From Pyrinomonadaceae bacterium (GTDB taxonomy: Bacteria > Acidobacteriota > Blastocatellia > Pyrinomonadales > Pyrinomonadaceae), in NCBI GenBank assembly GCA_030841085.1, contig JAVEDP010000023.1:1-64000 (forward strand): a stretch of 64,000 nucleotides of DNA, given 5' to 3'. Under the pieces are notes generated by a model. That model ran no database searches. It had not been told where the DNA came from and worked only from the letters and a program-made list of their open reading frames with translations. Below, one piece after another: positions 41,985-61,455 of this stretch. Numbering within the stretch: the stretch's first letter is position 1; each line of letters starts with the position of its first letter. Made by a program: the position numbers and the translations under genes.

Positions 41985-42100
41985 AATATATCCTGCATTT
42001 GACATATACGGGACAGCCGCGTAACGTGGTGGCGAACCGAGTCCAGCTTACTCCCTTCTCAGCACCAATCTGGATCTTCCAGATCAACTGATAATCCACA
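41985..42100 (+). promoter_or_regulatory. Conserved promoter-leader element, copy 1 (upstream of groES)
   Basis: TTGACA 41999-42004, N17, TAACGT 42022-42027; cgaaccgagtccagcttactcccttctcagc; ATCTGGA-TCT-TCCAGAT hairpin 42068-42084. Confidence 0.75.
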
Positions 42101-42149
42101 GCTCACTTACAAAGAAGTTCAGGGCGTCGTGCGTCGCCACCTCAGTCGG

Positions 42150-42180
42150 CAGATAGCAGTCGGCAGACGGCAGGCAGCAA
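42150..42180. repeat. Heptamer array (AGTCGGC/AGATAGC/AGACGGC)
   Basis: agtcggcagatagcagtcggcagacggcaggcagc. Confidence 0.85.
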
Positions 42181-42204
42181 AGCCGAAGGAAAAACAATCA
42201 GATT

Positions 42205-42534
42205 ATGACAACGAACATTACACCTCTACATGACCGCGTGATCGTGAAGCGCATTGACGAAGGCGAACAAATCCGCGGCGGCATCATCATCCCCGACAGC
42301 GCGAAAGAAAAGCCTCAGGAGGGCGAAGTAATCGCGGCCGGCGAAGGGAAATATAAGGAAGACGGAACGCGCCAGCCCCTCGATGTTAAAAAAGGCGACC
42401 GCGTCCTGTTTGGCAAATACAGCAGCTCGGAAATCAAGATCGACGGTGAAGAGCTTTTGATCATGCGCGAGGACGAGATTCTGGGAATCATCGCACGCGC
42501 TGGTGCGGCTGCCGGCGGGAAAAAAGGCAAGTAG
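42205..42534 (+). CDS. groES: Co-chaperonin GroES
   Basis: [42 protein letters not shown]. Confidence 0.97.
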
Positions 42535-48339: not shown

Positions 48340-48460
48340 AACTATATCCTGCATTTGACATATGGGGAGGCTTCGCGTAGGGTGGGTGTCGAACCGAGTT
48401 CAGCTTACTCCGCTCTCAGCTCCTCTGGCACTTTCCAGATCACCTGATAAATTCAACAAG
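48340..48460 (+). promoter_or_regulatory. Conserved promoter-leader element, copy 2 (upstream of RRM protein)
   Basis: TTGACA 48355-48360, N17, TAGGGT 48378-48383; cgaaccgagttcagcttactccgctctcagc; TCTGG...CCAGA hairpin 48424-48439. Confidence 0.75.
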
Positions 48461-48639
48461 CTCAAGTTCAAGAAGTTCCAAAGTGTCTATCTATCAGTCT
48501 GAGGCGGTCCCACGCCAGAGATGAGCACAGTGCTTGCCGCGATCGGCAATGCAACCCTCAAATCTGACGGGCCTCCAATGAAAATGCATCGGCTGGATTC
48601 CGTGGCTTCTGTTCCCAAAGGGGAAAGGTAAAAGAAAAA

Positions 48640-48936
48640 ATGTCTACAAAACTTTATGTTGGTAACCTCTCGTTTGAAACGTCGAGCAACGACCTCGAAA
48701 CTCTGTTCGCGAAAGCGGGCACGGTGCAAAGCGTCTCTTTGATCGAAGATCGCGAAACCGGTCGCTCACGCGGCTTTGGCTTCGTCGAAATGCAGACCAA
48801 AGAAGAAGGCGACGCAGCGATTGCGCAGTTTAACGGCACAGAATTGGCCGGGCGCACGTTGAAGGTCAACGAGGCCAAACCCCGCGAAAATCGCAACGGC
48901 GGTGGCGGTGGCGGCTTCGGCGGTTCGCGCTACTAA
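48640..48936 (+). CDS. RNA-binding protein, single RRM plus Gly-rich tail
   Basis: [20 protein letters not shown] (RNP2), RGFGFVEM (RNP1), [12 protein letters not shown]. Confidence 0.95.
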
Positions 48937-58398: not shown

Positions 58399-58686
58399 TT
58401 AGAGCGGGGCGTGTTCGCGGGCAGCCATCTGCTTAACTTTCTTCAGCTCCGGTCCCTTGATTCCAAAGTACGTGGCCATCTGCATAATCTGTCTCGGATC
58501 AACGAAGTCCTTCCGGTCCGAGCAGAACTTTTCCAGCGCCGGACCAAACTCGCGACAGGTCATCGTCTTCGGTAGTGGCAACCCGAGCAGACAAGTTCCG
58601 TCTTCACGGAACTGCACGCAGAATTCACAAACTCTCAATAGGGCTTCTTTCTTGAAGGATGATTGAGCGGTTAAACCCAGCGTCAA
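58399..58686 (-). CDS. Small Cys-containing hypothetical protein
   Basis: VCEFCVQFREDGTCLLGLPLPKTMTCREFGPALEKFC. Confidence 0.65.
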   Translation of the reverse strand: MTLGLTAQSSFKKEALLRVCEFCVQFREDGTCLLGLPLPKTMTCREFGPALEKFCSDRKDFVDPRQIMQMATYFGIKGPELKKVKQMAAREHAPL

Positions 58687-59364: not shown

Positions 59365-59475
59365 CGAGATATATTCCATAATTGACACATATCGCTTAGT
59401 GCCGTAAACTTTACACGAATCGAGTCTGCTTACTCCTTTCTCAGCTTATCTGGAATTCTCCAGACCACCTGAAGT
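59365..59475 (+). promoter_or_regulatory. Conserved promoter-leader element, copy 3 (upstream of STAS protein)
   Basis: TTGACA 59382-59387, N17, TAAACT 59405-59410; cgaatcgagtctgcttactcctttctcagc; TCTGGA-ATTC-TCCAGA hairpin 59449-59464. Confidence 0.75.
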
Positions 59476-59500
59476 ACACAGCCCAACAATTCGAGGACCG

Positions 59501-59890
59501 GTGATCAATCTCTATATCAAAGAGCGCCAGGTCGGAGACGTAACTGTTCTCGATCTGAAAGGCCGGGTACGTGTCGGTGGCGCAACGGTGTCTTTGCACC
59601 GGGCGTTCCGCTCGTTGGTGCAGGAAGAGAAGCTCCTTATTCTTTTGAACCTGGCCGGCGTGACGCACATCGATTCGAGCGGGCTCGGCGAACTCATTTC
59701 CAGCCATATCACGGTTTTCAATAAAGGCGGCGAGATCAAGCTCGTGCAATTGACGGAAACGCTTCGTGAACTGATGACGGTCACGAAACTGTTGACGATC
59801 TTCGATGTTTACGAGAACGAAGCAGACGCCCTTGTCAGCTTTGAAAACCACGTCCTGAGGGTCAAAGAGTCAAAGCTCTTTTTCGTTTAA
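59501..59890 (+). CDS. STAS-domain anti-sigma factor antagonist
   Basis: VTVLDLKGRVRVGG...ILLNLAGVTHIDSSGLGELISSHITVFNKGGEIKLVQL; GTG start. Confidence 0.92.
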   Translation: MINLYIKERQVGDVTVLDLKGRVRVGGATVSLHRAFRSLVQEEKLLILLNLAGVTHIDSSGLGELISSHITVFNKGGEIKLVQLTETLRELMTVTKLLTIFDVYENEADALVSFENHVLRVKESKLFFV

Positions 59891-61125: not shown

Positions 61126-61455
61126 ATGGCTGGTACTAATAAAACCGATGGTAAACCTTTAACCGGCGTCGCAAACGAGGGCACCTGGCCCGGCATAGAT
61201 TCACGGTTTCGTCTGATTATTGTGGCTGGCTTGCGAGCCAAACAACTCTTGCATGGTTCAAAGCCGCGCATTGAGACCGACAAGAAAAGGCACCGCCACA
61301 CAAGCATCGCGCTTGAAGAAGTGAAACGTGGGTTGGTGCCTTTCACTCGAGTTAACAGCGACGGGACGGAATTACTCGACGACGGCGCTGCTGAACTGCC
61401 GGGAAGCATTCACAACATCGGCCACAAGGATCATCGAGCGATTGTCGATTTTTAG
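61126..61455 (+). CDS. rpoZ: DNA-directed RNA polymerase omega subunit-like protein
   Basis: GIDSRFRLIIVAGLRAKQLLHGSKPRIETDKKRHRHTSIALEEVKRGLVPF. Confidence 0.75.
   Translation: MAGTNKTDGKPLTGVANEGTWPGIDSRFRLIIVAGLRAKQLLHGSKPRIETDKKRHRHTSIALEEVKRGLVPFTRVNSDGTELLDDGAAELPGSIHNIGHKDHRAIVDF

Follow-up and report, generated by a model that had tools for sequence, protein, structure and literature searches.

In many bacteria, groES is controlled by HrcA through CIRCE. Heat-shock genes can also be controlled from their 5′ UTR by RNA thermometers of the ROSE and FourU types, in which a helix occludes the Shine–Dalgarno (SD) sequence. In E. coli, the mRNAs of the cspA family share a cold box, a common 5′ UTR sequence at their extreme 5′ end that acts at the RNA level. 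The Pseudomon-groES RNA motif (RF01721) is a conserved predicted structure in the 5′ UTR of groES (PMC2864571).

The groES gene studied here lies in a 64-kb stretch of acidobacterial DNA (hereafter the window). As in HrcA/CIRCE systems, HrcA is encoded in the source genome (on contig C18), but CIRCE (TTAGCACTC-N9-GAGTGCTAA) had no match in the window with up to three mismatches, in line with the original prediction that groES lacks it; none was found near hrcA either. What precedes groES is a promoter followed by a conserved leader, and the same arrangement recurs before the genes for an RRM protein and a STAS protein. For searches, an alignment of thirty sequences from the source genome and fifty-eight relatives was made into a covariance model (R1), and a rebuilt model is called R2. 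The features of the three loci are as follows.

41986–41997, + strand: AT-rich upstream block ATATATCCTGCA of the groES copy; moderate conservation, solely in TTGACATATA-type promoters
41999–42004, + strand: −35 element TTGACA, groES copy
42022–42027, + strand: −10 element TAACGT after a 17-nt spacer, groES copy
42034–42111, + strand: leader element (76-nt type), groES copy; first base is the predicted +1 (R1 E = 1.4e-18; R2 E = 1.3e-13)
42045–42103, + strand: outer helix P1, groES copy, AGCT (42045–42048) with AGCT (42100–42103)
42059–42091, + strand: helix P2, groES copy, TCAG (42059–42062) with CTGA (42088–42091); near-invariant
42069–42083, + strand: hairpin P3, groES copy, TCTGG (42069–42073) with CCAGA (42079–42083); covariation
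42205–42534, + strand: groES; groEL follows from about 42696
48355–48360, + strand: −35 element TTGACA, RRM copy
48378–48383, + strand: −10 element TAGGGT, RRM copy
48391–48470, + strand: leader element, RRM copy (R1 E = 2.3e-17)
48640–48936, + strand: RRM RNA-binding protein gene (Pfam RRM_1, 2.1e-22)
59382–59387, + strand: −35 element TTGACA, STAS copy
59405–59410, + strand: −10 element TAAACT, STAS copy
59417–59491, + strand: leader element, STAS copy; the start codon lies 9 nt past its end (R1 E = 1.4e-19)
59501–59890, + strand: STAS gene (anti-anti-sigma type), GTG start, SD GAGG (Pfam STAS, 3.5e-12)

The layout originally described for these three regions was borne out in its coordinates, in TTGACA, in the spacer of exactly 17 nt and in the −10 hexamers, which are weak. 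The transcribed block begins 6 nt after the −10 in the groES and STAS copies and 7 nt after it in the RRM copy. All three copies then run in the order GAAYCGAG...GCTTACTCCNYTCTCAGC...TCTGG..CCAGA...CTGA...AGCYC, and both the small hairpin and the CACCTGA-like segment of the original description were found in them. The conserved unit, at 76 nt, is longer than first stated and extends to ACAGCTCA. Without mismatches, the core pattern matches three times in the window, where chance would give 0.19 matches even with up to three mismatches allowed, and the exact core has no other copies across the 4.69-Mb genome.

Several neighboring sequences were also recorded. Short near-repeats of cagtcggcag occupy the gap between leader and groES (42112–42200), and the inserts found there in relatives vary in length and are alike only in part. 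Near the STAS gene, on the − strand (58399–58686), is a gene for a small CEFC...CREF protein, relatives of which bear the leader in other genomes. An ORF at 61126–61455 resembles, as judged by eye, a divergent RNA polymerase omega subunit (RHTSIALEEVKRGLVPF); its relatives also lie near leader copies.

Model R1 identified four leader copies in the source genome. The fourth (G000:C2:109745–109819, or L266:601–675; E = 9.4e-10) is diverged and precedes a gene for a secreted protein with no Pfam match; its promoter (CTATACAG..TATAGT) differs from those of the window trio. Among 162 genomes of Blastocatellia-type Acidobacteriota, R1 matched fifty-five and R2 fifty-nine, and R2 yielded about 115 copies in all, with one to six per positive genome; these counts of genomes and copies are minimum values, since scoring is confined to the best first-look candidates of each genome. 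The positive genomes belong to families f1, f2 and f6. Many close relatives have no leader, so the element is dispensable rather than essential. Across the whole phylum, the sole genome outside the class with a copy was G331 (L281:1500–1575, before an ABM-like gene), and contamination or horizontal transfer could be its source. None of twenty-five genomes from outside the phylum had a match at E up to 1. The presence and conservation of the leader family are well supported, and a covariance-model search of relatives, as the original prediction had proposed, finds the leader conserved before orthologous genes with covariation in the hairpin.

We analysed 111 copies, comprising the three from the window and 108 from 100 fetched regions. 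By our own grouping of promoter types, eighty-seven copies follow a TTGACA-N17/18-TANNNT promoter (type A), with a gap to the leader of 6–7 nt in eighty-five of them; nine follow TTAGGTAA...TGATAGRGT, six follow CTATACAG...TATAGT, and nine are unclassified. Positions −6 to −1 carry about 0.1 bit of information per base, and positions +1 to +3 carry 1.3–1.7 bits. As the block opens on the predicted +1 and persists after promoters of at least three types, selection appears to act on the RNA and not on the promoter. The conserved unit is therefore best explained as the transcript, with transcription probably starting at the leader's first base. This amends the original picture of a conserved promoter plus leader: unrelated genes do have the leader in common, but they do not all share the promoter, since about 15–24 of the 111 copies use other promoter types.

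The leader also shows the covariation expected of a folded RNA. Hairpin P3 (UCUGG/CCAGA) has double changes in 5/5 pairs, with much worse results for slid controls, and the covariation that the original prediction anticipated there exceeds a phylogeny-aware null in which substitutions are redistributed on the tree (P = 0.002), though the alignment (A3) had been fitted to a structure with P2 and P3, which gives P3 some advantage. Helix P1 (AGCU/AGCU), outside that fit, has double changes in 4/4 pairs, in few cells (P = 0.004 against the same null; double compensation taken alone is weak, P = 0.09). The structure as a whole gives P = 0.002. Helix P2 (UCAG/CUGA) is nearly invariant, and covariation is therefore unable to test it. 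Folding stability is modestly above that of shuffled sequences (mean z = −1.3). The outer helix of our first model, GAGU/GCUC, showed no excess covariation (P = 0.69) and AGCU/AGCU was put in its place; a 5′ GAG/CUC hairpin did not clearly exceed controls. The leader combines a covarying structure with a sense-strand site between promoter and gene start, orthologs included, as is generally asked of a cis-regulatory RNA.

We consider it probable that the leader is a new family of cis-acting RNA at the 5′ terminus of mRNAs in Blastocatellia-type Acidobacteriota, through which a trans-acting factor would control a small set of stress-related mRNAs together. Each copy would start at the predicted transcription start and fold as one irregular hairpin, with AGCU/AGCU at its base, then a large internal loop that holds a conserved ACUC..UUC, the UCAG/CUGA helix, a CUYC/YCAY internal loop and the UCUGG/CCAGA tip. 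The near-invariant GAAYCGAG at the 5′ end would stay single-stranded. The leader would act after initiation, whichever promoter had produced the RNA, and the factor would most likely bind the 5′ end and the loops and jointly set mRNA stability or translation. The candidate factor is an RNA-binding protein, with a small RNA or a ligand less likely as the recogniser. RRM proteins are candidate partners because their genes often bear the leader, and the factor could be an RRM protein with the leader on its own mRNA. Such proteins occur in fifty-nine of sixty genomes of the family whether the leader is present or not, so co-occurrence cannot test them as partners. A genome-wide search of both strands for a long antisense RNA turned up no sequence close to the 18-nt core other than the leaders themselves, and matches with three mismatches equal the control; pairing through short seeds may still occur.

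The compact irregular hairpin and its conserved internal loops, together with diverse targets that include one NusG-like gene, might also suit a ligand-binding riboswitch (for an alarmone or an ion) or a signal for processive antitermination. We regard this as unlikely, given that neither a terminator nor an alternative SD-occluding fold was identified, that targets are mostly short genes and that Rfam has no match. About equally unlikely is that the block is a DNA operator just past the start site, shaping promoter escape or bound by a transcription factor at an HspR/HAIR-like GAGT-N7-ACTC core. Such a core does stand at +6 of the groES copy, and its distance to the −10 is fixed, but variants like GAGA..ACTC are common, and the GAG/CUC pairing (columns 6–9 with 19–22), present in 87.5 per cent of cells, is not in clear excess over shuffles. 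Full HAIR sites (CTTGAGT-N7-ACTCAAG) are no commoner in the window than chance, with two matches at three mismatches against 2.1 expected and none at the leaders. Hairpin covariation and conservation of one strand over 76 nt indicate RNA.

For an RNA thermometer, in which the leader would mask the SD when cold and melt when heated, the targeted chaperonin and HSP20 genes would be fitting, and some leaders contain a GCUCCU able to pair with AGGAGC. Pairing of the SD is nevertheless lower with native leaders than with dinucleotide-shuffled ones (0.48 versus 0.63, P = 0.0003) and no better than with leaders swapped in from other copies (P = 0.65), and the groES and RRM start codons of the window lie 93 and 169 nt past the leader. 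We hold this reading to be very improbable. With the SD apparently open by default, a stabiliser, an enhancer or a factor-binding site is a better fit than a thermometer.

The genes downstream are diverse when each copy is assigned the closest gene family no more than 320 nt away. Across the 111 copies they include groES (18), STAS (15), ABM (14), RRM (12), a small membrane protein (6), LysM (3) and others, among them HSP20, CarD-type and secreted proteins; eighteen copies precede single genes, and four, some of them at contig ends, have no gene. Pfam confirms the STAS, RRM, CarD, LysM, HSP20, NusG and fasciclin targets, with ABM slightly under the cut-off. In the ABM group, the start codon follows the leader end by 10–15 nt, in most cases with an AAGGAGC-type SD between, and an additional stretch of roughly 50–230 nt follows the leader at most groES and several RRM genes. 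A strict test for gene starts (a start codon with SD and sixty or more open codons, within 24 nt) was passed by 22/111 copies in sense and 0/111 in antisense, compared with 1.0 per cent of random positions. In one region (L178:2201–2463), head-to-head leaders about 110 bp apart, one per promoter type, serve a diverging ABM gene and unknown gene.

The regulon is small, with its four copies in the source genome, and its membership varies. It is from gene names alone that we infer a stress regulon: groES, HSP20, LysM, STAS and CarD fit the original suggestion, but the targets also include fasciclin, NusG-like and secreted proteins. Recognition by a factor and control under stress are also inferred. 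Compared between genomes, the nearest leader to a given copy belongs to the same gene family in forty-one of sixty-five cases (12 per cent expected), and the copies lie in sense before genes, so the original view that this is not a scattered repeat held. A mobile or locally duplicated promoter–leader cassette, spreading without a common regulatory role, is largely refuted and very improbable: copies do cluster (the three in the window fall inside 17.5 kb, and head-to-head pairs occur in L178 and L195) and identity between the groES and RRM copies reaches 81 per cent across about 125 nt, promoter included, but leaders of the same gene across genomes average 87 per cent identity against 73 per cent for the best other-gene leader within a genome, the leader stays while promoters differ, and the copies, strictly in sense to genes, have no matches in plasmids, phages, or viral collections and contigs.

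In soil, Acidobacteriota rank among the most abundant bacteria, yet to our knowledge the coordination of their stress genes is poorly understood. A constant leader behind changing promoters and changing downstream genes would amount to a clear post-transcriptional regulon. By analogy, the leader might be a bacterial counterpart of the eukaryotic 5′ TOP tag, with one factor reading the leader mRNAs as a group and the RRM protein regulating itself, a parallel we offer tentatively and think somewhat doubtful. The 76-nt unit, its approximately 115 natural variants and covariance models R1 and R2 provide a handle for pulling down a partner.

In Rfam 15, no family matched when the whole window was searched at the gathering threshold, and permissive searches likewise left the leader unmatched, with E allowed up to 10 in the window and up to 1 at six other loci. 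We found no description of the leader among open-licence papers, which, with the Rfam result, is consistent with the novelty originally suspected. The nearest known system in kind is Pseudomon-groES, which is likewise a predicted conserved RNA structure upstream of groES; it belongs to Pseudomonas and has no Rfam match to the leader, and the acidobacterial leader is common to many other genes. ROSE and FourU elements also sit in the 5′ UTR of heat-shock genes, but the leader has no SD-sequestering helix, and native copies favour an open SD. Like the cold box of cspA mRNAs, it is a common 5′-end sequence on several stress mRNAs; the cold box serves one cold-shock family, with no sequence similarity noted, whereas the leader serves unrelated genes behind several promoter types. 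What is unusual is a leader family that is tied to the predicted start of the transcript and recurs across several promoter types, and this folded 76-nt leader has the appearance of a tag, not described before, through which these messages are controlled jointly.
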